NCBI GenBank assembly: GCA_021604825.1 | Contig: BQJS01000201.1 | Location: 1-8,603, forward strand | Direction: 5' to 3' | Source: Phycisphaerae bacterium | Lineage (GTDB): Bacteria; Planctomycetota; Phycisphaerae; UBA1845 | Length of the DNA stretch: 8,603 nucleotides | Shown here: positions 1 through 8,603 of the stretch, one piece after another | How positions within the stretch are numbered: the first letter of the stretch is position 1 | Layout of the letters: each line of letters begins with the position of its first letter | Notes under the pieces: generated by a model | What the model was told of the DNA's origin: nothing | What the model saw: the letters and a program-made list of their open reading frames with translations, nothing else | Database searches by the model: none | Translations under genes and position numbers: made by a program

Positions 1-783
1 TTCCAAGCCAGATACGATGGGGCAACAGACGGGATCGCCAGCATTCAACTGCGCCCGCTTGATACGTCGGGCGACCCATCGGGCGCCATCATCGAACAAA
101 CCCCGATGCCCGAAAACTCGCTGTCCTCCAATTATACGTGGCAGACCTTCAACTACAGCGTTGCGTCGGGCCTGACTCCGAGCATCGGGCTTGCCATCGT
201 GGTCGCCGTGCAACAAGACGACAACAGGGTCTGCAACATTCTCTATGACGATGACGGTGGGAACGGTTACGTCGAAACCGCCAATTCGGGTGCGAATTGG
301 CAAAGTTGGAGCATAGGCATACCCCATTACGTCTATGGCAAGGTCACTATTGATGTGGGAGGAACAAACTACATCGGTACAGAAACCGGAGAAGGCACAA
401 GCACCCGCGCCGACTTTGACGACGTGGACGACTACGACGGTTGGACGGCATCGCCTCCGGTTGAAAGAGACGGCACCGCGGTGGCGGGCTACGATGGCTG
501 GACGCGCAATGTGACGGTTGAATACATCAACCCCCTGGCGCCCGGCGGGGCAGCAGTCAACAGCGATGCTGGCGCGAAGCGCATCACCGTCACTGTGACC
601 GACCCACGCGGCGCAACGTCTTCGATCACCAGCGTAAGAACCAACGCGGGAACCTACGAACAAGAAGTGATGTCCACGCGCACGTATTGCAGTTGGGTCG
701 GACTGGACCTGCAAATCGGCGAGGCCAACGCGGCCTTGTCGCTGGGTGCGTCGCTGGCCAACGAACCGGTGATTTCGGATTGA
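1..783 (+). CDS. MshD-like minor pilin, C-terminal part (5' end outside window)
   Basis: The reading frame is open from base 1, so 260 residues of a longer protein are visible; the first ATG in frame (position 106) is internal and not a convincing start. Residues 138-148 read DFDDVDDYDGW, followed by a second YDGW and an RNVTVEY...KRITVTVTDPRG stretch. This combination is typical of MshD-like minor pilins, in which an acidic DDYDGW loop precedes a beta-rich region. The upstream part is beta-rich and Trp/Tyr-rich (NYTWQTFNYS, NWQSW) and may be a jelly-roll-like sensor region. The N-terminal prepilin signal and helix would lie off the left edge. The stop is 5 bases before the next + strand gene, so the two are probably co-transcribed as part of a type IV pilus or secretion pseudopilin cluster. 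Family assignment is by motif recognition; the exact role (tip or minor subunit) is inferred. Confidence 0.75.
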   Translation, partial: FQARYDGATDGIASIQLRPLDTSGDPSGAIIEQTPMPENSLSSNYTWQTFNYSVASGLTPSIGLAIVVAVQQDDNRVCNILYDDDGGNGYVETANSGANWQSWSIGIPHYVYGKVTIDVGGTNYIGTETGEGTSTRADFDDVDDYDGWTASPPVERDGTAVAGYDGWTRNVTVEYINPLAPGGAAVNSDAGAKRITVTVTDPRGATSSITSVRTNAGTYEQEVMSTRTYCSWVGLDLQIGEANAALSLGASLANEPVISD

Positions 784-788
784 GCGCG

Positions 789-2204
789 ATGCCAAACAAA
801 CATCCCAAGCCCTTAGACACCCGTCGGCGTGCGGCTGGTTACATGCTCGTCCTTGGCGCCGCCATGCTGATCACCGTGATCGGATACGCCTCTGTCATGA
901 CCGCGCGGTTCAACACTCGGATGGTGGCGGGCACCAATGATTGGGCGCGGGCGGGTGCGTTGGCCATTGGAGCTGCGGAATTGGCGCCTTTGGTGTTGGA
1001 GGAAAAACCGGACTGGCGAACCGACCTGACCAGCGGGATACCGGTCCGCTTCAAGATCGATGGACAAGCGGTCAATGTCATATTCGTCGATGAGGACGAC
1101 GGTGATTTCACAACGGGAACGTATGACCCCGTTCGCGCGTACGGCATGGCCACTGTGGGCGACGCCGTTCGTGTCCGCAGCGTGCTCCTGACACCCAATA
1201 CAAACGTGCCCATGACGTGTTTGGAAGTGGCGGCCCACAGCGCCAGTGGCTTTACGGGCCTCACGGCGACGCTGACTTCTAACCAGATCATCAGCACCGC
1301 AGCCAGTTTCACTGGGGCCTTGGTGACCATCAACGCCGACGTGGAATACGCAGGAACGCTCGCCGGCGTGACGGTCAATGGAACGCAAACCAAAACGACT
1401 GAACCGCGAACGATGCCTGATCCTGCGAGCGTGTTTGAATATTACATCAACCATGGCACAATCATCCCGCTGGACTCTCTTCCCATGTTCGATGGTGATC
1501 GTGCCATCGACGAAGCCGTCCTGACACCAATCTCAAATCCATATACGGGCGAACTGAACCCCGAAGGCATCTATGTGATCGATTGCGAGGGCGGTATCGT
1601 CACTGTGCGCAACTCGCGCATCGAAGGCACGATCGTTCTCCTCAATGCAGAGGCGAATGACATGGCGGACCATTGCAAGGTCGTCGGCCAAGTCACGTGG
1701 AAACCGGCCATCCCCAACTACCCTGCCGCACTGGTACAGGGCAATTTCGATTTCGCGTTTGATGGCGGCGTGATGATGAGCGAATCGGTTATCGGGGTGA
1801 ATCTGAATCCAGTCGGCACGCCGTATAACGGCGCCGAGGATGCGGCGCTGGACGATGAGTATCCGTCGCGCATCCAGGGAATCGTCTATGCGACTAGCGG
1901 AACAGGATTTCTTTCCAACACACCGTATCTCGAGGGTGTTTGGCTTTCTGGAGAAATGTTTGGTGCCATCGGCAATTCCAACGGAACGATCAACTTCAGC
2001 AAGCGCTACTACCAAGAGCCGCCACCAGGATTCGGCGCGGGGCCATACGAACCGGTGGTCGGCACGTGGCGTTGGGACGAAGCTCCTTGTGGTTCGAGAA
2101 ATTCGACGTGTACAGATGACTCCGAATGCTGCTCAGGCAATTGCGACGAAATCGCCAAGAAGTGCAGGAAGTTCGTTGAGGTCGTGGATCTCGGATTGAA
2201 ATAG
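789..2204 (+). CDS. PilX-like pilus-associated membrane protein with C-terminal knottin-like module
   Basis: 471 residues from the ATG at 789; the frame is open further upstream, but that part overlaps the previous gene and lacks a signal. After a basic start (TRRR, residues 11-14) comes a transmembrane helix at about 15-38 (GYMLVLGAAMLITVIGYASV), resembling the N-terminus of PilX-type proteins, which lack the classic prepilin Glu5. Next come an AR.GALAIGAAELA helix, a WR motif near residue 76 and a long Thr/Val/Ile-rich beta region with many NxT/NxS turns (about 140-400). Near the end, six cysteines (434, 441, 447, 448, 452, 459) are spaced C-6-C-5-CC-3-C-6-C, the pattern of inhibitor-cystine-knot mini-proteins, placed between TWRWDEAP and the final VEVVDLGLK. 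The protein most likely sits in the envelope with its beta region outside, working with the preceding minor pilin. Biochemical function is unknown. Confidence 0.8.
   Translation: MPNKHPKPLDTRRRAAGYMLVLGAAMLITVIGYASVMTARFNTRMVAGTNDWARAGALAIGAAELAPLVLEEKPDWRTDLTSGIPVRFKIDGQAVNVIFVDEDDGDFTTGTYDPVRAYGMATVGDAVRVRSVLLTPNTNVPMTCLEVAAHSASGFTGLTATLTSNQIISTAASFTGALVTINADVEYAGTLAGVTVNGTQTKTTEPRTMPDPASVFEYYINHGTIIPLDSLPMFDGDRAIDEAVLTPISNPYTGELNPEGIYVIDCEGGIVTVRNSRIEGTIVLLNAEANDMADHCKVVGQVTWKPAIPNYPAALVQGNFDFAFDGGVMMSESVIGVNLNPVGTPYNGAEDAALDDEYPSRIQGIVYATSGTGFLSNTPYLEGVWLSGEMFGAIGNSNGTINFSKRYYQEPPPGFGAGPYEPVVGTWRWDEAPCGSRNSTCTDDSECCSGNCDEIAKKCRKFVEVVDLGLK
2088..2165 (+). other. Cystine-knot (knottin-like) six-cysteine module inside the PilX-like protein
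   Basis: Codons for residues 434-459 encode CGSRNST, CTDDSE, CC, SGN, CDEIAKK and C in order. The spacing 6-5-0-3-6 matches the general inhibitor-cystine-knot/conotoxin-like framework (C-C-CC-C-C), and the DDSECCSGNC core resembles the xDxxCCxGxC core seen in many small disulphide-rich domains. The other cysteines of the protein (144, 266, 296) are isolated. Disulphide formation and fold are inferred. Confidence 0.6.
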
Positions 2205-2244
2205 CCGAGTTGCTTGCTGATACAGATTGACCGGCGTTTGGAGG

Positions 2245-4056
2245 TCAAGCTAAGGCGTTCGATTCCGTATCAGAGTGGGCCAACGGAATCAGACAAACGT
2301 CCTGTGTGCTGTGGCCAGTGAGTTGTGCGATGGATATCGTCTGGGCGGGATGCTTCGGTTGATTGGCATTCCAGACGACGATGCGGTCGCGGGCGTCGTT
2401 GATCGCGACGATCATATCGGATGCGCATTCCGCGCGGCGGATGGTTTGACCACCGGCTTCGTAGCGGCAAACGAACGAATCGCCCAATACCTGCGAATAG
2501 ACCGCAAGCGACGTGTCTGTGTAAAACAATCGGGCAACATCGCCATCGGTGATCGATGCGATTGACTCGACAGCGCGGCGACTTCCAGCGTGAATTCGAT
2601 GCGGCGATTCGCTGGCCAGACCAGCCCAGTGCAAAACATCGCCATCGACCGTACCCGCGAAGATGTCATCGCCCTCGACGGAAAGCGCCGTGATCGTATC
2701 GCCGGCGGCTGACAGCGACACATCGTTGGATTTCAAATCGTCTTCCGAGACGCTGAGAATCGAATCGTCAACGCTGCACCAGAATCGACCCGCTGCGAAC
2801 GTCGCGCAACGCACGGCTTTCGCTTGCGATGTCTTGTCTTCAAACAGCACGGTGACGTTGGAGTTCGGTGAATCGGCAGCGTCGCCACCTTGATGTCGTG
2901 GCCATGCAATCACGCCCAACTCCGAATGCGTCCCAACCACCCATTGATCGCTGACGGCCACCGCGTTGAAACCGCCTCGCGGAGCTTCCGCGCATCGGTA
3001 TACAAACGTATTTATGATCGCACCGCTTTCGATATCGAGTTCATAGATGCCGTTTGAAGCACCGATCCACAACGTCGCAGCCGACGACGAACTGGCAAAC
3101 TGTACTGAACGCATGCGGCCAGCCGCCCCACTCACGGGAATTCGCTTGGGCGGGTCGGCGAGTCGCTTCACATCAAACTGCAGAACCTCGTTGCCAGTCA
3201 GCGCGACAACATCAGCCGTTACGGGTTGCGTTGCACGCGATTCAAACAGGGCTTGATACAACTGCCCGCGCTGCGATTCGGAGAACGCCTTCATCAAATC
3301 GGACATTGCGGCGTGCGGTGATTCGTCGGCCAATTCTTTCAGCTTCGACAGCATCGTCTGAAGGTGGTCGAGCTTTTGATTTTGTGCCGTGCTGATCGCC
3401 TCCCGCAATTCACCCTGGGCGGTGTGCTCATGCAATCGGCGGGCGGCTTGTTCTTCTGCTGCTCTTGTGCGGGCGTGACCTTCCGATGTGAATCGGACTT
3501 CGCGGATCGAGTCGATCGTCAACCCGCTCGCAAAGCACACTTCGGCGACGGATTCCTTAACTGCGTCCAGAGCAGCCGATCCGCACTTTCCACCGACGAG
3601 TTCGCCAGAGTTCTGAGACGCAACGAACGCCAGCATTCCCTTCTCAATCGAAGGGCGCAGGCAAGACCGAACGGACTCAACGTCGGCGTCGGTTCGACTG
3701 GCAATCACCCGATCGCGAAATGAATCGAGATCGGCGCGTTCGGGAACCAACGTGACCTGCGCTTGGACGCTAACGTCGCACAAGTAGTTGTCACCCGCTG
3801 GCAACTTCTGCATCTCGAACGATAGATCAATCGGTTGACTGCGAAAGATCAACAGTTCGGAGAGGTCGCTGCCCTCAATCACTTGACCCGGGCGATGCAT
3901 GCGATGGACGTCATCGCGGCTGACCGATTTCGCCGCGAAACCGGCTGGCAGATCGAAGCTGCGTTTGAACACGCCGAATATAGCCTCAGCCGGAATGGAT
4001 ACAGCAACCGAACTTGGGTTCGACAACCATTTTTGAATGTCGATGGCGTTGCTCAT
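2245..4056 (-). CDS. SPFH/band-7-like domain protein with coiled coil and C-terminal beta-propeller
   Basis: 603 residues from the ATG at 4056; a GTG at 4116 would add 20 Cys/Lys-rich residues that fall in repeat sequence, so the ATG is preferred. Residues about 15-205 look like an SPFH (band 7/flotillin-like) domain: beta segments around SELLIFRSQPIDLSF, LCDVSVQAQVTLVPE, then FRDRVIAS, a helical stretch, and ASGLTIDSIREVRF followed by a charged Ala/Glu/Arg helix (HARTRAAEEQAARRLHE), the usual SPFH end. Residues about 205-275 are predicted coiled coil. From about 285 to 590 there are repeated short beta blades (LWIGASNGIYELDIESG, DDIFAGTVDGDVLHWAG, DRIVVWNANQP) like a WD40/quinoprotein-type propeller. 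No transmembrane helix is evident. SPFH proteins scaffold membrane microdomains and often neighbour PspA-type genes. It lies 161 bp downstream of the Vps4-like gene on the same strand, so membership in that system is likely but could be a separate transcript. The propeller's ligand is unknown. Confidence 0.75.
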   Translation of the reverse strand: MSNAIDIQKWLSNPSSVAVSIPAEAIFGVFKRSFDLPAGFAAKSVSRDDVHRMHRPGQVIEGSDLSELLIFRSQPIDLSFEMQKLPAGDNYLCDVSVQAQVTLVPERADLDSFRDRVIASRTDADVESVRSCLRPSIEKGMLAFVASQNSGELVGGKCGSAALDAVKESVAEVCFASGLTIDSIREVRFTSEGHARTRAAEEQAARRLHEHTAQGELREAISTAQNQKLDHLQTMLSKLKELADESPHAAMSDLMKAFSESQRGQLYQALFESRATQPVTADVVALTGNEVLQFDVKRLADPPKRIPVSGAAGRMRSVQFASSSSAATLWIGASNGIYELDIESGAIINTFVYRCAEAPRGGFNAVAVSDQWVVGTHSELGVIAWPRHQGGDAADSPNSNVTVLFEDKTSQAKAVRCATFAAGRFWCSVDDSILSVSEDDLKSNDVSLSAAGDTITALSVEGDDIFAGTVDGDVLHWAGLASESPHRIHAGSRRAVESIASITDGDVARLFYTDTSLAVYSQVLGDSFVCRYEAGGQTIRRAECASDMIVAINDARDRIVVWNANQPKHPAQTISIAQLTGHSTQDVCLIPLAHSDTESNALA

Positions 4057-4091
4057 GGCGTGTTTGGCTTTCGATCGAATGTTCTTAACTG

Positions 4092-4110
4092 CACTGCTCA
4101 CAAAGCAGTG
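4092..4110. repeat. Short inverted repeat (6-bp stem, 7-nt loop)
   Basis: CACTGC at 4092-4097 is the reverse complement of GCAGTG at 4105-4110, separated by TCACAAA. Its right arm is part of the first copy of the 12-bp direct repeat. There is no adjacent T-run on either strand, so a classical intrinsic terminator is not supported. Confidence 0.55.
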
Positions 4111-4138
4111 GCACACCAGTCACCGGGCAGTGGCACAC
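4105..4138. repeat. Two direct copies of GCAGTGGCACAC, 22-bp period
   Basis: Identical 12-mers lie at 4105-4116 and 4127-4138, so they sit about two helical turns apart. The second copy is embedded in CAGTG-GCA-CACTG (4128-4140), a 5-bp inverted repeat. They occupy the non-coding gap (4057-4217) between the Vps4-like and SPFH/propeller genes. The spacing would suit a dimeric regulator, or this could be a dispersed intergenic repeat. Nothing else is recognisable in this 161-bp gap apart from the -10-like hexamer at 4202-4207. Confidence 0.6.
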
Positions 4139-4201
4139 TGGGAATCCTAGTTACATCATCTCTTATTCGCCCGGTGTCGGCCTTTATTAATCTTCAATTT
4201 G

Positions 4202-4207
4202 ATTATA
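4202..4207 (-). promoter_or_regulatory. Candidate -10 hexamer upstream of the SPFH/propeller gene
   Basis: The - strand reads TATAAT here, a perfect -10 consensus in an AT-rich patch just after the stop of the Vps4-like gene. The hexamer 17 bp upstream is GACCGG, a poor -35, and there is no extended -10 TG. It would give a leader of about 140 nt containing the hairpin and repeats at 4092-4140. A promoter is possible but not proved. Confidence 0.3.
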
Positions 4208-4217
4208 GCGGGGCCAA

Positions 4218-5336
4218 TCAGCGGCCGGTCTGTTTGAACTTGTCGAACCGAATCAGGTCGCCGGGTTTGACCGAAGGCGTTTGTGATTCGATACGACTCA
4301 ACATGTCCAAGAGCGTAATCGACCGCTCGCTACCGCCCATCGCGTCCATGAACGCCACCTGGGCGGCTTGCATGCAGAGGTTGCGAATGTCCGCACCGCT
4401 GTACCCTTCCAGATGATCGCACAAAACGCCGAGATCCATGTCGTCGGCGACGGGCCGATCAGCCAGATAAATCTCCAGCAGCCGAAACCGCGCCGGCGCA
4501 TCAGGCAAACCAACGTAGACCAGCGTATCGAATCGCCCCGGCCGCAGCATGGCTTCATCAAGCATCCAAGGTTTGTTGGTGGCTCCAACAAACAATAGCG
4601 CTCGTTCGCCGTTGCGATCAAACCCTTCAAGTTCCTGCAAAATTTGCGGGACAACGCGGGCCATCACCGTCGAACCTTCGGACTTGCGGCGCGGCACCAG
4701 TGCTTCGATCTCGTCGATGAAAATCACCGATCGATCATGCTGCTTAGCCGTCTCGAAAAGTTTGCGAACGTTTTGCTCCGCTTCGCCCACCCATTTTGAA
4801 AGAATTTGCGCCGGGCTGATGACAAAAAACGTCGAGTTAATTTCGTGGGCGATGGCTTTGGCCATCATCGTCTTACCGGTGCCCGGCGGCCCGTACAGCA
4901 ACACGCCCCCACCGATGTTGATCCCATATTTCGCCGCCAACTCCGGGTGGCTAAACGGATAGATCATCTTCAAGCGGATTTCCTGCTTGATCTCTTCCAA
5001 CCCGGCGATGTCGTCGAAACCGATATCCGGTTTGTCTTCAACGATCCAGTCGGAGGCTTGTGCGCCGCCCTCTTCTTCTTCCTTGGCACGCTTGCGAAAA
5101 CGTCCGCCTTCCGGATCAGCTTCAAACCGTTTGCAGTCCTTGGCCAGATCGATCAGCTCTGCCGCCACTTCTTCACGTTGCCGGCGAAGTTCGGGTGTGT
5201 CGCTCGTCTCAGCCAGTTCGACCATGCAGTCTGCCGCCTCGGTCAAGAACGTACCAGCCGCAGCGTAGTCACCCTTCTTGTACGCGGTGACGCCCTTGCT
5301 CTTGAGCCTCTCAAATGTGGAGTAGGAAACGCCCAT
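4218..5336 (-). CDS. Vps4-like AAA ATPase with N-terminal MIT-like domain
   Basis: 372 residues, close to archaeal CdvC/Vps4 length. Residues 1-75 form a three-helix MIT-like region (GVTAYKKGDYAAAGTFLTEA, then two charged helices), followed by an acidic/basic linker (80-100). The AAA module starts at FDDIAGLEEIKQEI; Walker A is GPPGTGKT (149-156), pore loop 1 is KWVGEAE (181-187), Walker B is VIFIDEIEAL (204-213, D208/E209), sensor 1 is GATNKPW (251-257), arginine-finger segment LRPGRFD (264-270), and sensor-2 helix GYSGADIRNLC (311-321). The end, TLLDMLSRIESQTPSVKPGDL, resembles the Vps4 C-terminal region (DFL...RPSV...DLL). The eukaryotic Vps4 beta-domain insertion is absent. Known role of the family: ATP-driven threading and disassembly of ESCRT-III polymers, recruited through MIT binding to MIM tails. 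The gene starts 9 bp after the ESCRT-III-like gene with no clear Shine-Dalgarno, suggesting coupled translation. Oddity: PGRFD fingers are p97/FtsH-like rather than the Vps4 RRRFE form. Confidence 0.9.
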   Translation of the reverse strand: MGVSYSTFERLKSKGVTAYKKGDYAAAGTFLTEAADCMVELAETSDTPELRRQREEVAAELIDLAKDCKRFEADPEGGRFRKRAKEEEEGGAQASDWIVEDKPDIGFDDIAGLEEIKQEIRLKMIYPFSHPELAAKYGINIGGGVLLYGPPGTGKTMMAKAIAHEINSTFFVISPAQILSKWVGEAEQNVRKLFETAKQHDRSVIFIDEIEALVPRRKSEGSTVMARVVPQILQELEGFDRNGERALLFVGATNKPWMLDEAMLRPGRFDTLVYVGLPDAPARFRLLEIYLADRPVADDMDLGVLCDHLEGYSGADIRNLCMQAAQVAFMDAMGGSERSITLLDMLSRIESQTPSVKPGDLIRFDKFKQTGR

Positions 5337-5345
5337 GATGTGTCG

Positions 5346-5951
5346 TTACTTCTGCTTTTCGCTTTTGCCTTTGAGGGCGTCGATTTCCGCGCGAAGCCCA
5401 GCCAGTTTGCCCATTTCTTTTTGGTGTTCGGCTTCGCTTTCGGCTTCAATCATGCGATCGATTTCATCATCGCTGATGGTGTCGGCTGTCGACATTTCCG
5501 CATCTTGGGCGGCAACGTCTTCGATCGTGTCGAGGAACATGCCCATCCGCTCTTCCATCGTTTGCGACTGAACCATGGCCTTTTCCCAGTCGGCTTGCGT
5601 CTTGACCAGATCGGTTTCGCCGAAAAGTTTTCCGATTTCGCTGGCCATCATGCCCATTGCACCGGCGAAGTCGGCTGATGCTTCGGCTTGCTTCTTGATG
5701 ATCATCGCGTTTTTGACGCTGAGCAGTTGACGCTCCAACACCCGTTTCATCGCAGCCGTCTTCTTCAGCGTGTTGCGGATGAATTGGTACTGAGCGGTGT
5801 CGCCAATCTCCTTGGCGCGGCGGGCGTTCTTGACGAACTCGTCGGTGAACTTGCCCTGTTCGCGAATGGCTTTCTCGATGCGACGGATGCCCTGGCGAAT
5901 CTTGATATCGCGTTCTATACGCCGCTCTTCGTTTGATTTAAAAAGTGCCAC
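5346..5951 (-). CDS. ESCRT-III/Snf7-like protein with C-terminal MIM1-like motif
   Basis: 201 residues, the usual CHMP size. It starts at a GTG (5951) whose G is the last base of the pspC stop (TAGTG), a one-base overlap implying coupled translation; the next in-frame Met is near residue 68. The N-terminus MALFKSNEERR resembles the short amphipathic alpha-0 of CHMP proteins. Residues about 8-45 and 48-100 are long basic helices forming the alpha1/alpha2 hairpin (AKEIGDTAQYQFIRNTLKK, MKRVLERQLLSVKNAM). An AGAMGMMASEIGKLF stretch matches the AMxxMxxxMGxL region of CHMP2-like proteins, then acidic helices follow (EERMGMFLDTIEDV, DDEIDRMIEAES). The tail LRAEIDALK (186-194) fits the MIM1 core LxxRLxxLK except for Glu at the Arg position. 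Family role: membrane-bound filaments that bend and cut membrane. Target is unknown here. A PspA/Vipp1-type identity is the main alternative, but the MIM-like tail and adjacent Vps4 favour the classical branch. Confidence 0.8.
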   Translation of the reverse strand: MALFKSNEERRIERDIKIRQGIRRIEKAIREQGKFTDEFVKNARRAKEIGDTAQYQFIRNTLKKTAAMKRVLERQLLSVKNAMIIKKQAEASADFAGAMGMMASEIGKLFGETDLVKTQADWEKAMVQSQTMEERMGMFLDTIEDVAAQDAEMSTADTISDDEIDRMIEAESEAEHQKEMGKLAGLRAEIDALKGKSEKQK

Positions 5952-6151
5952 TAGTCGTACTCACGCTGAGGTATCAGAATCCACAAGAGAAAATAGACGA
6001 GCACGCCGGAGAATGCCGTGAAGATAGTAGCAAACACGTAGACGATGCGTACGAGCGTCGGGTCCCAATCGAAATACTCGGCGATCCCGCTACACACGCC
6101 GGCAACCTGCACGTCGTGGCGACTTCTTCGCATTGGATATGGTGATGACAT
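5951..6151 (-). CDS. pspC: PspC-domain membrane protein (minimal, 66 residues)
   Basis: MSSPYPMRRSRHDVQVAGVCSG begins the chain, followed by IAEYFDWDPTLVRIVYVF and a transmembrane helix ending in YFLLWILIPQREYD. The AGVCxGIAEYFxxDPTLVR motif followed by a hydrophobic helix ending in WxLIP is the signature of the PspC family. Only this single domain is present; E. coli PspC is nearly twice as long. The ATG at 6151 is chosen because AGGAG sits 8 nt upstream; a GTG at 6160 in the same frame is too close to the Shine-Dalgarno. In the phage-shock system PspC is an inner-membrane sensor that communicates with PspA, itself an ESCRT-III superfamily member. Here it lies between two ESCRT-III-like genes and overlaps the next by one base, so it plausibly recruits or senses for these filaments at the membrane. 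That link is inference from context. Confidence 0.92.
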   Translation of the reverse strand: MSSPYPMRRSRHDVQVAGVCSGIAEYFDWDPTLVRIVYVFATIFTAFSGVLVYFLLWILIPQREYD

Positions 6152-6159
6152 TTCTAGCA

Positions 6160-6170
6160 CTCCTCTCCTT
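6160..6170 (-). promoter_or_regulatory. Strong Shine-Dalgarno for pspC that fixes its start
   Basis: The - strand reads AAGGAGAGGAG, containing two overlapping AGGAG cores. The second is 8 nt from the ATG at 6151 and decides between that ATG and the GTG at 6160. It is the strongest ribosome-binding site in the window. The 60-bp gap it lies in (6152-6211) otherwise contains only a weak 5-bp inverted repeat. Confidence 0.75.
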
Positions 6171-6211
6171 AAATCAACGGCGTGCGAACTCTCAACGCCC
6201 CGCTTTGGCGA

Positions 6212-6820
6212 TTATTCGGACGCGGCATTTTGCTGCTCGCGTACGCGGCGATCGGCTTCGTCGAACGCCTCTGTCGAGTCTTCAATTGCCCCGCGATCCA
6301 TTTGGTCCCAGACATCAAGCACCGTTTGGCCCGCATCAGAAAGGGCAGCCGATCCCTCGTCCACATCGCGACCCATCTTCAGAACTTCGTCAAGTCGCTC
6401 CTGATACAACTCGCTCTTGACCGAGTCGTTCTCGATCATCTTGCCAAGTCGCAAAATGTCCTTCTCGCTGATGAGCCCTAATTGACTTCCCGCACTCGCA
6501 GCCCGGTCGGCGTTTTCGCGCATCATCCGCAAACGCGAGACAGTCATCATCTCTTTGCTGCGAATGTTCAGCTGCCGCGAGAGCATCAACTGCTCGCTGG
6601 TCTTGAGTTCAAACTCCTGGGCCATCATCCGGCGAACTTCGGGGACTTTTTCGTTCGCACCCTTTTCAAAAAGTTCCTGCTTTTGCCGGGCGAGCTTCAT
6701 GGTCTTGTTGACCAGTTGCGTGCGGTCCTTTTCCAGCAGAAGTTCCTGACGCCGCAACTCCGCGCGGGTCATCTTCGACAAGGGCTTCTTGCGTTTGACC
6801 AACCAATCCATCAGCGACAT
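6212..6820 (-). CDS. ESCRT-III-like coiled-coil protein, second subunit
   Basis: 202 residues, almost all helical, no transmembrane segment. The start MSLMDWLVKRKK is amphipathic and basic like CHMP alpha-0. Residues about 15-105 form a very basic pair of helices with a turn near FEKGANEKVPEVRR (51-64), matching the Snf7 alpha1/alpha2 hairpin. From 120 on the chain is acidic (about residues 127-190, with DEGSAALSDAG and AIEDSTEAFDEAD). The turn resembles that in the larger upstream protein (LLKQGRENKSAVVRRRL), indicating the two helical cores are related. No MIM1-like sequence is visible at the C-terminus (REQQNAASE), unlike the 201-residue paralogue. The gene starts 3 bp after the upstream stop and uses GGAGG at 6832-6836, inside the end of that gene, 11 nt from the ATG. 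Likely role: co-polymer or adaptor of ESCRT-III-like filaments. Homology by eye is weaker than for the 201-residue protein; a generic coiled-coil protein is the alternative. Confidence 0.68.
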   Translation of the reverse strand: MSLMDWLVKRKKPLSKMTRAELRRQELLLEKDRTQLVNKTMKLARQKQELFEKGANEKVPEVRRMMAQEFELKTSEQLMLSRQLNIRSKEMMTVSRLRMMRENADRAASAGSQLGLISEKDILRLGKMIENDSVKSELYQERLDEVLKMGRDVDEGSAALSDAGQTVLDVWDQMDRGAIEDSTEAFDEADRRVREQQNAASE

Positions 6821-6823
6821 GCG

Positions 6824-8275
6824 TTAACTGGCCTCCGGATCGGCAGGTTTACGTTCTTCGGTCTTGGGCGCTTCGGCTTCCTCGTCAAACATCGCGAACG
6901 ATGTGTCGGCGGCAGGCTTCGACGTTTGCTTTGGCGTTGAACTGGTCGAAGCCGATTCCGCCTTCAGGGGTTCGTCAAACTCGGCGAGAATGTCGGCTTC
7001 TTCGCTACCCACCAGCGCTTCACCCACGCCGGTTTCAAGACTCGACACCAAATCGGAGTCGGCTTTGAGCGTTTCGAGCATCTCTTCGGCACGGACAGCA
7101 TTCTCCGTCAACTCCTGCGTATCGGGCAGCGACGCTGCTTCTCCCTGCTGGATCAACGTGAGATTGTGGACATCGGTGCTGATGATGTTGATCTGCTGAT
7201 TGAGCATGTTCGCCGTCGTATTCTGACGGGCGATATCTTTGCGCAATTGCGCGATTTGCGCGACCAACCGCCGACGAACGACGGCAGACTTATTCTCTCG
7301 CCCCTGCTTGAGGAGATCAGATTCTTTCTCTTCGAGGCTGGCGATCTCTTCATACAAACGATTGCGCCGTTGAGCGAGCGCCGCTCGCCTTTCCGACAGC
7401 ATGTTGATCTTCGCGACCTCGTCCCCCTCTTTGGCGAACATATCTTTGATTCGGTCCACAAAACTCATAGATGTTCTCTCCGTGGCGACGACAGCCGCAC
7501 CGCGATACAACAGCCGGCCTTCCTTTGACTTGGACACCCGCAATTCCGGATCGCTCTTGGCGATTCTGTCTAGCGCCCGATTGACCACCTCAACCGGTAA
7601 GCCCACATCCTGGGCAATTCGATCCGACGCCAACCCTCCGGTCAACAAATCAGTCCCACGCCGCTCAACTTCCTGCCTGACACGATCCAATTTCTGATCG
7701 ATATCTTCCGGGTCAAACATCTCGCGGACGAACTTGGGCACGCTTTCGTCGGCGGTCACCTTCCAGCCACCACCGGAAAGCGGTTCGACCAACACGACAT
7801 CCATATTCGGATATTCGTGGCGGGCGCTTCGGGCCTCTTCGGTAAACCCGCTGGTTGCACACACACCGACGACGGCACGCACTTTTGGATCGGGTGCGAT
7901 CTGACGAATGTGTTCGGTCAGTTCGTTGAGCGACATCGGCTGCGATGGGCCGCCGTCCTCCAGCAGATCGTCGAATCGCGACACCACCGACGCGATCGCC
8001 GAACCCGTTTGCCGCTTCCAGAAAATGAATCGCTTTTCGTATCCGTTGATGCTGACCACGCGATTCTTCGGCATCTGCTTGAGCAGCGACCGGTCGTACA
8101 TGCGCTTCGACGCCATCTGCGCCCGCAGGGCGTCGTTGTCATCTTTCTCAACGGTCTGCCAAGTGCTGCCCCGCAGGTAACGGCTTTTCGCTTCCTCGAT
8201 GTTGGCAGTCACGCCGGCGAGAAACTGATTCTCAACCTTCAACGCATCCGCTGCCTCATCGGTTAGTTTGGCCAT
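6824..8275 (-). CDS. CHMP7-like fusion: alpha/beta N-terminal region, winged helix, ESCRT-III-like core
   Basis: 483 residues from the ATG at 8275, with GGGA about 9-12 nt upstream; an in-frame TTG at 8278 is less likely. Residues 1-68 are helical and charged. Residues about 70-180 look alpha/beta (VRAVVGVCATSGFTEEARSA, then MDVVLVEPLSGGGWKV). Residues about 205-258 fit a winged helix: LASDRIAQDVGLPVEVVNRALDRI as helix-turn-helix, then LRVSKSKEGRLLYRGA as the wing. At 270 a segment MSFVDRIKDMFAKE looks like the N-terminus of a free-standing ESCRT-III protein, followed by a long helical hairpin (290-378) with LLKQGRENKSAVVRRRL and QINIISTDVHNL, an acidic helix (385-435) and a disordered Ser/Thr/Pro/Glu tail. 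Winged helix plus Snf7 core is the architecture of CHMP7, an ESCRT-II/ESCRT-III hybrid that nucleates filaments. A nucleator or recruiter role is inferred. No catalytic motif was recognised. Confidence 0.7.
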   Translation of the reverse strand: MAKLTDEAADALKVENQFLAGVTANIEEAKSRYLRGSTWQTVEKDDNDALRAQMASKRMYDRSLLKQMPKNRVVSINGYEKRFIFWKRQTGSAIASVVSRFDDLLEDGGPSQPMSLNELTEHIRQIAPDPKVRAVVGVCATSGFTEEARSARHEYPNMDVVLVEPLSGGGWKVTADESVPKFVREMFDPEDIDQKLDRVRQEVERRGTDLLTGGLASDRIAQDVGLPVEVVNRALDRIAKSDPELRVSKSKEGRLLYRGAAVVATERTSMSFVDRIKDMFAKEGDEVAKINMLSERRAALAQRRNRLYEEIASLEEKESDLLKQGRENKSAVVRRRLVAQIAQLRKDIARQNTTANMLNQQINIISTDVHNLTLIQQGEAASLPDTQELTENAVRAEEMLETLKADSDLVSSLETGVGEALVGSEEADILAEFDEPLKAESASTSSTPKQTSKPAADTSFAMFDEEAEAPKTEERKPADPEAS

Positions 8276-8305
8276 CAACAGTTCCCGAATTCACCCAAGA
8301 TTCGA

Positions 8306-8335
8306 ATGCCTTTAAAGTCTATGCCTTTAAAGTCT
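8306..8335. repeat. Perfect 15-bp tandem duplication across a stop codon
   Basis: ATGCCTTTAAAGTCT occurs twice back to back (8306-8320 and 8321-8335). On the - strand each unit contains CTTTAA, and the stop of the zinc-ribbon gene (TAA, 8329-8327) lies in the right-hand copy; the left-hand copy is in the 51-bp spacer before the 483-residue gene. It is short enough to be a slippage product. Confidence 0.8.
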
Positions 8336-8590
8336 TTGCCCGCAACGCCCACAGTATACCGCACTTGGGCGATTCGCATATCCGCAGCGGCGGTTTGCAC
8401 ACTCTTTTCGCCCTCCACGCACGACCGCACTCTGCCCGTGGCCTGACGTGGGACGGTGCGACCCAATCCGCGGCCGCTTTTCGACATACGGCTGATGACT
8501 CCCAAAAACGAAGCCCAACAGCTTTCCCGGAAGCACGAACACAAACCGCACCATCGCGAGGAATATCGCAGCGACGCTGAACATCGCCAT
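8327..8590 (-). CDS. Small membrane protein with C-terminal zinc ribbon (5' end uncertain)
   Basis: 87 residues from the ATG at 8590, but the frame stays open through the last 13 bases of the window (preceding codons F, G, V, F), and no Shine-Dalgarno is visible, so the true start may lie outside. Residues 3-30 are strongly hydrophobic (AMFSVAAIFLAMVRFVFVLP, then LLGFVFG), suggesting one or two membrane segments or a re-entrant hairpin. A basic, probably disordered linker follows (31-62). The C-terminus has C64, C69, C80 and C83 in CANRRCGYANRPSAVYCGRCGQRL form, split here as CANRRCGYAN and YCGRCGQRL, the pattern of a small zinc-ribbon knuckle. The stop is 51 bp before the 483-residue gene on the same strand, so it probably belongs to the same operon. 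It may anchor or recruit partners at the membrane; the function is unknown. Confidence 0.7.
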   Translation of the reverse strand: MAMFSVAAIFLAMVRFVFVLPGKLLGFVFGSHQPYVEKRPRIGSHRPTSGHGQSAVVRGGRKECANRRCGYANRPSAVYCGRCGQRL

Positions 8591-8603
8591 GAATACGCCG
8601 AAC

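Follow-up and report, generated by a model that had tools for sequence, protein, structure and literature searches.

Whether a bacterium may carry a multi-subunit relative of the ESCRT-III (endosomal sorting complex required for transport III) and Vps4 machine is the question raised by a contig of a Phycisphaerae bacterium of the phylum Planctomycetota (assembly GCA_021604825.1, contig BQJS01000201.1, positions 1 to 8,603 of the forward strand). The window, as used below, is this whole stretch of 8,603 nucleotides. The original prediction had read five co-directional genes at 4218-8275, all of which are present on the minus strand, as an operon for a Vps4-like ATPase, three ESCRT-III-like proteins and a PspC protein. 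The core of that interpretation is supported by the Snf7 match of one protein family (H1), by a phylogenetic tree of the ATPase (AAA1) and by the gene order in relatives. The cluster is very probably a bacterial relative of the ESCRT-III/Vps4 machine, with a Snf7-family protein, two more probable ESCRT-III-type proteins (H2 and BIG) and a Vps4-like AAA protein, and is predicted to remodel the cell membrane. Its features are as follows.

6824..8275, minus strand: BIG, with an alpha/beta N-terminal domain, a winged helix (7502-7702) and an ESCRT-III-like hairpin region (6974-7462); 483 amino acids counted from ATG 8275, TTG 8278 being an alternative start of the large open reading frame
6212..6820, minus strand: H2, probably of ESCRT-III type and related to BIG in its C-terminal part (hhalign)
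5951..6151, minus strand: PspC-domain membrane protein (PF04024, E-value 1.7e-24), with an alternative GTG start at 6160
5346..5951, minus strand: H1, Snf7-family (ESCRT-III) protein of 201 amino acids with a GTG start (family-level Pfam Snf7 match, AlphaFold2 model, Foldseek)
5370..5396, minus strand: MIM1-like helix LRAEIDALK at the C-terminus of H1, residues 186-194 (pattern conserved in tails)
4218..5336, minus strand: AAA1, Vps4-like AAA ATPase of 372 amino acids (PF00004, E-value 7.3e-41; CdvC alignment; tree)
5115..5336, minus strand: MIT-like N-terminal domain of AAA1 (hhalign to the corresponding domain of a second ATPase, AAA2)

The intergenic distances are those first noted, namely 3 bp, 60 bp (from the PspC ATG at 6151; 51 bp with GTG 6160), a 1-bp overlap and 9 bp. 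Among the window proteins, Pfam matches over the cut-off were obtained for the AAA and PspC domains, at the E-values listed.

Protein families of the cluster

The assignment of H1 was made at the level of its family. In a diverse set of H1 sequences, Pfam Snf7 was matched by 25 of 37 members at an E-value of 1 or lower (best 2.7e-6) and the runner-up family by 3 of 37. Among H1 sequences from 80 close loci and the window, Snf7 was the top family by count, with 21 of 62 members matching at an E-value of 10 or lower (best 0.0011). The Snf7, MIT and PspA models were also run against whole genomes, using 14 of the 61 H1-positive genomes (10 for the H2 and BIG scans). The H1 gene was the best Snf7 match genome-wide in 11 of these 14, at an E-value of 0.005 or lower in nine, and the curated Snf7 cut-off was passed in one of them, at the H1 gene (G175, 28.4 against 27.3 bits, positions 2-158 of 171), and in none of 14 control genomes. 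Of the 120 homologues listed for a divergent H1, 16 carry a precomputed PF03357 annotation. The window's own H1 gave no Pfam match at an E-value of 10 or lower, so the Snf7 match is one of the family and not of the window copy alone. The window H1 shares 32-43% identity with 25 divergent members of the set and, being below detection itself, owes its Snf7 membership to family descent. Since none of the 14 genomes showed a PF04012 (PspA_IM30) match where H1 lies, H1 is not considered a PspA. Snf7 is far commoner than any other Pfam family among H1 members, and an outcome of generic coiled coils only was not seen; the family-level match thus supports H1 as a Snf7-family (ESCRT-III) protein.

The AlphaFold2 model of H1 has helices at residues 7-49, 52-110, 116-153 and 161-200, and the six best PDB matches of this model in Foldseek are all ESCRT-III chains. 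A long hairpin of helices 1 and 2 followed by more helices is seen in the predicted models of H1 and of BIG 272-434, an arrangement for which helical look-alikes score similarly. The layout of a basic hairpin and an acidic tail, first described in the window proteins, was present in every homologue measured (81/81 for H1, 75/75 for H2 and 73/73 for BIG). Short rows had been dropped from the counts made per family, which kept 75 of 77 H2, 73 of 74 BIG and 57 of 58 AAA sequences. Alignments A3 to A7 contained 62, 60, 59, 44 and 39 sequences, each comprising the window sequence and a choice from 80, 73, 70, 55 and 47 usable locus sequences, respectively. In one genome a second, partial H1-like stretch (G424:C23:83892-84119, profile positions 127-198) lies close to the full copy.

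The three ESCRT-III-like proteins of the original prediction differ in standing, with H1 identified by Snf7 at family level, BIG by its model and H2 tied in only through BIG. The BIG family gave Snf7 matches in 10 of 59 members (best E-value 0.011), and CHMP2A-CHMP3, CHMP1B, Snf7 and Shrub were within the top five rows when the BIG hairpin was compared using VIA-align; BIG is modelled as a winged helix with an ESCRT-III-like hairpin. The H2 profile matches the C-terminal hairpin part of BIG (hhalign probability 93.7, E-value 1.9e-7), and Snf7 is absent among the 25 Pfam families listed for 60 H2 members. H2 is probably of ESCRT-III type, solely by way of this profile match. Residues 1-190 of BIG (window 7706-8275) form an alpha/beta domain that is conserved, G170 and W171 being invariant, and for which the fold searches, which barely covered this region, gave no row establishing a fold.

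In AAA1 the pore loop KWVGEAE is present as first reported and is invariant in 44 aligned ATPases. The PSV..DL segment is also present but is not specific to Vps4, and it was dropped as a Vps4 landmark because the p97 D2 tail aligns with it and is similar. The NCBIfam models for PAN, CDC48 and CdvC scored 234.5, 232.0 and 229.6 bits, all far under their cut-offs, and of the three CdvC alone aligns across nearly the whole of AAA1 (14-365). As the CdvC score fell below the equivalog cut-off of 650 bits, AAA1 was filed as Vps4-like and not as a CdvC orthologue. AAA matches under 45% or 50% identity, depending on the search, had been excluded.

A tree of AAA domains was calculated from 35 sequences and 241 columns under LG+G4, with 1000 ultrafast bootstraps and FtsH as outgroup. 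AAA1, AAA2 and yeast Vps4 stood apart from Cdc48 D1, Cdc48 D2 and FtsH with an ultrafast bootstrap value of 92. AAA1 formed its own group (100) outside the pair of Vps4 and AAA2 (80). The references were few (a single Vps4, with CdvC, katanin and PAN absent), and long branches led to Vps4 and AAA2. A grouping of the ATPase with FtsH or Cdc48 was not seen in this tree, which has moderate support and a small reference set.

The MIT-like domain of the original prediction was recovered by an indirect chain, and a direct Pfam match of the window ATPase was not obtained. AAA2 is an ATPase of about 412 amino acids with an MIT-like domain; 22 of the 31 divergent loci have it upstream of H1 (e.g. L086, L100, L103 and L107), with or without AAA1. 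Pfam MIT was matched by the N-terminal domain in 0 of 18 AAA1 sequences and in 1 of 12 AAA2 sequences (E-value 0.17). The N-terminal profiles of AAA1 and AAA2 match each other (hhalign probability 91, E-value 1.1e-6), and that of AAA2 aligns with the VPS4B/SKD1 MIT domain across 6-75 of 80 positions (E-value 3e-5), which is its best match to a natural protein, three designed TPR proteins scoring higher. Because of these two matches the AAA1 domain is called MIT-like. A whole-genome scan with PF04212 (MIT) was dominated by TPR-like noise and was uninformative.

The H1 tail may provide the contact for this domain. The pattern LxxE[LI]xxL[KR] occurs in 76 of 81 H1 tails against a shuffle mean of 0.4, a comparison that is not a probability since the sequences are related, and all 81 sequences share L186, E189 and K194. 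The spacing is that of the MIM1 motif, which has Arg where H1 has Glu; the Arg form occurs in none of the 81 tails. In 56 of 57 AAA1 sequences, the position aligned to E68 of yeast Vps4 holds K or R (K/R66). Judged from these sequences, a swapped salt bridge between H1 E189 and AAA1 K/R66 is possible and would explain both conserved positions. By eye, the motif is not retained in the tails of divergent H1 proteins.

Gene order and spread

Two further features of the window adjoin the five genes.

2245..4056, minus strand: SPFH/Band_7-type protein with a C-terminal beta-propeller, from ATG 4056, with a longer open reading frame from GTG 4116 (603-623 amino acids)
8327..8590, minus strand: possible first gene, for a small protein whose N-terminus is hydrophobic and whose C-terminus holds a zinc ribbon (Zn_Ribbon_1, E-value 3.4e-4, below the cut-off)

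The order of transcription on the minus strand is zinc-ribbon open reading frame, BIG, H2, PspC, H1, AAA1 and SPFH/propeller gene. The operon limits first proposed, 4218-8275, enclose the five genes correctly, and the unit is longer, taking in the SPFH/propeller gene, which had been missed, and perhaps also 8327-8590 upstream. It is not regarded as a chance array, because its gene order recurs in relatives, in reduced form in more distant ones. In the SPFH/propeller family Band_7 was matched by 14 of 39 members (best E-value 3.6e-6), with no Pfam match for the window's own copy, and the family profile matches WD40 structures (best E-value 7.4e-19). A counterpart of the zinc-ribbon open reading frame was assigned in 11 of 80 loci.

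A search of 5.8 billion proteins at an E-value of 0.001 or lower gave 1433 homologues of H1 and 1111 of H2. Among the 120 matches listed for each, all are unnamed or hypothetical, and the named organisms are Phycisphaerae, Phycisphaerales, Planctomycetes, Planctomycetota or just bacterium. One H1 homologue (P0335) is named Candidatus Sumerlaeota, outside Planctomycetota. A scan of GTDB genomes found 82 places, from which 80 loci were kept; 78 of the 80 titles are Planctomycetota or a subgroup, one (L004) is labelled Alphaproteobacteria and is probably a mislabelled bin, and one (L019) reads only bacterium. With the H1 profile, 56 of 392 genomes sampled from the phylum were positive, and a broader profile gave the same number.

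Gene order was counted in loci with more than 4.5 kb upstream (66/80) or more than 5 kb downstream (56/80). Upstream of H1, BIG and H2 were each in place in 63 of 66 loci and PspC in 36 of 66, and downstream the AAA gene was in place in 46 of 56 and the SPFH/propeller gene in 43 of 56. The order BIG-H2-H1-AAA was found in 37 of the 47 loci with both flanks, the SPFH/propeller gene accompanying it in 36 of those 37, and the neighbourhood is retained across close relatives in Planctomycetota. Extra genes stand between H1 and AAA in many loci; same-strand open reading frames of about 477-545 amino acids are inserted there in L014, L032, L034, L035, L042, L043 and L061. In two chromosome-sized single contigs, L030 (genome G001) and L055 (genome G002), BIG and H2 do not immediately precede H1 but lie side by side elsewhere, about 0.7 Mb off in G001 and about 8 kb off in G002. 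In L053 they are likewise apart from H1 and the ATPase. Since the complete set of H1, H2, BIG and AAA is present on two single-contig chromosomes, it is bacterial and no binning artefact.

Within the 31 divergent loci (L082-L112, many of them short), AAA1 was found in 15, compared with the 22 with AAA2. The 20 with long flanks contained AAA1 or AAA2 in 19, a BIG-like gene in 18, the SPFH/propeller gene in 7, H2 in 1 and PspC in none. By these counts the constant core is therefore H1, an AAA protein and a winged-helix BIG-like protein; it is mainly in close relatives that H2, PspC and the SPFH protein can be recognised. Ten open reading frames near H1 in L096, L100, L107 and L109 gave two Pfam matches over the cut-off, both to Kdo/WaaP-type kinases whose genes lie between AAA2 and H1 (L096:8184-8933, E-value 1.2e-28; L100:8083-8919, E-value 5.8e-26). 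A viral origin was considered and found unsupported, relatives being encoded by none of 65 pattern matches in viral_contigs.

Function and rival explanations

From its parts, we infer that the cluster encodes an ATP-driven membrane-remodelling machine on the cytoplasmic membrane. Filaments would form on the inner face of the cell membrane and be pulled apart by the ATPase, with the membrane bent, repaired or cut as a result. BIG would start assembly by means of its winged helix and the short helix before its hairpin, H1 and H2 would lengthen the filament via their basic hairpins, and the acidic tails would hold free H1 and H2 subunits closed. The AAA hexamer is envisaged to use its MIT-like domain to catch the terminal LxxELxxLK helix of H1 and to thread the H1 subunit through the pore bearing KWVGEAE, and PspC and the SPFH/propeller protein may mark the membrane patch.

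A number of results weigh against a relationship to ESCRT-III and Vps4. The window's own H1, H2 and BIG, like its SPFH/propeller protein, have no Pfam match over the cut-off, and the Snf7 genome scan misses H1 in the three genomes that are of the same type as the window (G001, G002 and G003). At an E-value of 10 or lower, weak Snf7 matches occur in 12 of 14 control genomes, and one control, Sulfolobus acidocaldarius, matches Snf7 only below the cut-off. Every Foldseek E-value for the H1 model is 0.064 or worse, VIA-align of that model puts eight BAR- or bMERB-type rows above the first ESCRT-III row, and no ESCRT-III is among the best 50 Foldseek rows listed for BIG. By sequence, the H1, H2 and BIG profiles find no ESCRT-III in PDB; homology between H1 and H2 was sought twice and not detected, and the relation of H1 to BIG is weak (probability 2.9). 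For the ATPase, the near tie of the PAN, CDC48 and CdvC models means that the NCBIfam comparison cannot separate CdvC from CDC48 or PAN, PF09336 (Vps4_C) reached 17.0 bits against a cut-off of 21.3 (E-value 0.0059), and the N-terminal domain of AAA1 matches TPR and DUF1771 in Pfam and not MIT. The spread is also restricted. H1 is found in only 82 of 298 genomes of the class, H2 in 1 of 7 divergent genomes (G175) and 4 of 31 divergent loci, and PspC in none of the 31; in divergent genomes the BIG profile is matched chiefly over its N-terminal and winged-helix parts (for example G050, 5-257 of 483).

Among known systems, the archaeal Cdv set (CdvB, CdvC) is alike in that a Snf7-family protein adjoins a Vps4-type AAA protein with an MIT-like domain and in having several ESCRT-III-type genes; in CdvB a winged helix is attached to an ESCRT-III-type protein, a likeness to BIG. 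The cluster differs from Cdv in its bacterial host, in the winged helix standing before the hairpin in BIG and in its PspC and SPFH/propeller partners. In eukaryotic CHMP7, which has ESCRT-II-like tandem winged helices, a winged helix precedes the ESCRT-III-type region as in BIG, whereas BIG carries an additional N-terminal alpha/beta domain. PspC is a known partner in the Psp system. PspA and Vipp1 have a helical hairpin of the same superfamily, according to passages of PMC7615534 and PMC11237479, and a PspC partner; unlike them, H1 matches Snf7 and not PspA_IM30, and several subunits and a Vps4-like ATPase are present here. SPFH proteins occur in some archaeal ESCRT loci, and the Meth_adaptin loci, as presented in a part of PMC10936438, combine a Vps4-type ATPase and an SPFH protein in one locus as here, whereas the SPFH-type protein of the window ends in a beta-propeller, PspC is present and the host is bacterial.

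The closest precedent is PMC11237479, sections of which report that some bacteria have Snf7 homologues, that members of the Snf7 or PspA clade stand next to other AAA+ ATPases, and that VPS4-like ATPases have been transferred to bacteria, where snf7 is displaced by an unrelated TPR/6TM gene. In contrast to the transfers described there, a Snf7-family protein here adjoins the Vps4-like AAA protein and two more ESCRT-III-type proteins. Relative to those sections, what is new is the combination of this pair with a winged helix, PspC, SPFH and the other two ESCRT-III-type proteins. No description of a planctomycete ESCRT-III/Vps4 operon was found in the open PMC literature, a scope that excludes subscription papers and most preprints. 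PMC10936438 and PMC7615534 state that bacteria lack ESCRT-III/Vps4 systems, a view contradicted by a Snf7/Vps4-like set of several subunits that is found repeatedly across Planctomycetota and is complete on the G001 and G002 chromosomes. With such a set, ancient inheritance and transfer can be tested against each other as histories of the machine, and there is a concrete candidate for how planctomycetes without FtsZ remodel or divide membranes.

The alternative that survives best, and one to be taken seriously though the odds are against it, is a Psp-like module for membrane protection under envelope stress, in which an unusual ESCRT-III set replaces PspA and PspC and SPFH serve as membrane partners. 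It would account for PspC within the operon, for the SPFH-type protein after the ATPase in most close loci and for the scarcity of PspA_IM30 matches above the cut-off, seen in only 4 of the 14 system-bearing genomes scanned; a section of PMC11237479 describes PspA accompanied by band-7 proteins and AAA+ partners. PspC, however, is missing from the divergent loci and present in little more than half of the close ones, no PF04012 match falls on H1, and in part this explanation shares its mechanism with the membrane-remodelling machine proposed above.

A Cdv-like division machine, in which the ESCRT-III/Vps4 set constricts or cuts the division neck in bacteria without FtsZ, as CdvB and CdvC do in Sulfolobus, is unlikely. 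FtsZ was found in 0 of 55 divergent H1-positive genomes and in 1 of 36 H1-positive genomes of close loci; the sole match among these 91 is in G418 (the genome of L056), on contig C302, and is possibly contamination. The appeal of a division role comes from a passage of PMC6952346, which states that Phycisphaerae divide in a binary-fission-like manner without FtsZ and raises the question of the driver. FtsZ is equally lacking in H1-negative genomes, however, with any match in 2 and none over the cut-off among 60 examined out of 336 H1-negative genomes of the phylum sample, and its absence was dropped as a mark of the system. As H1 is moreover confined to a minority of the class, the H1 set is not a general replacement of FtsZ, and remodelling or repair of the cytoplasmic membrane is the safer bet for its first job, with division as a rival. 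The fullest form of the idea, a complete ESCRT-III/Vps4 scission machine in planctomycetes without FtsZ, with a charge-swapped Glu/Lys contact between MIT and MIM, that would cut the division neck in some Phycisphaerae as Cdv does, is a doubtful one; if it holds, ESCRT-III/Vps4 pairs extend beyond archaea and eukaryotes. Budding, which had been suggested as a context, is unsupported, many named relatives being Phycisphaerae, with the binary-fission-like division given in that part of PMC6952346.

A Cdc48-like unfolding or quality-control ATPase, with unrelated coiled-coil adaptors merely resembling ESCRT-III, is improbable. The AAA core (about 200 bits against a Cdc48 D2 domain), the near tie of the three NCBIfam models and the ease with which coiled coils yield spurious matches speak for it; the Snf7 specificity of the H1 family, the VPS4 MIT match of the paralogue AAA2 and the AAA tree speak against it.

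Other features of the window

Between the ATPase and SPFH/propeller genes, at window positions 4104-4140, GTGCCACTGC occurs twice on the minus strand. Two plus-strand open reading frames, 687-2204 and 1-783, are convergent with the operon and match no Pfam family at its cut-off; the second of these has a pilin/PilX-like hydrophobic segment near its start and a short cysteine-rich stretch at its end.

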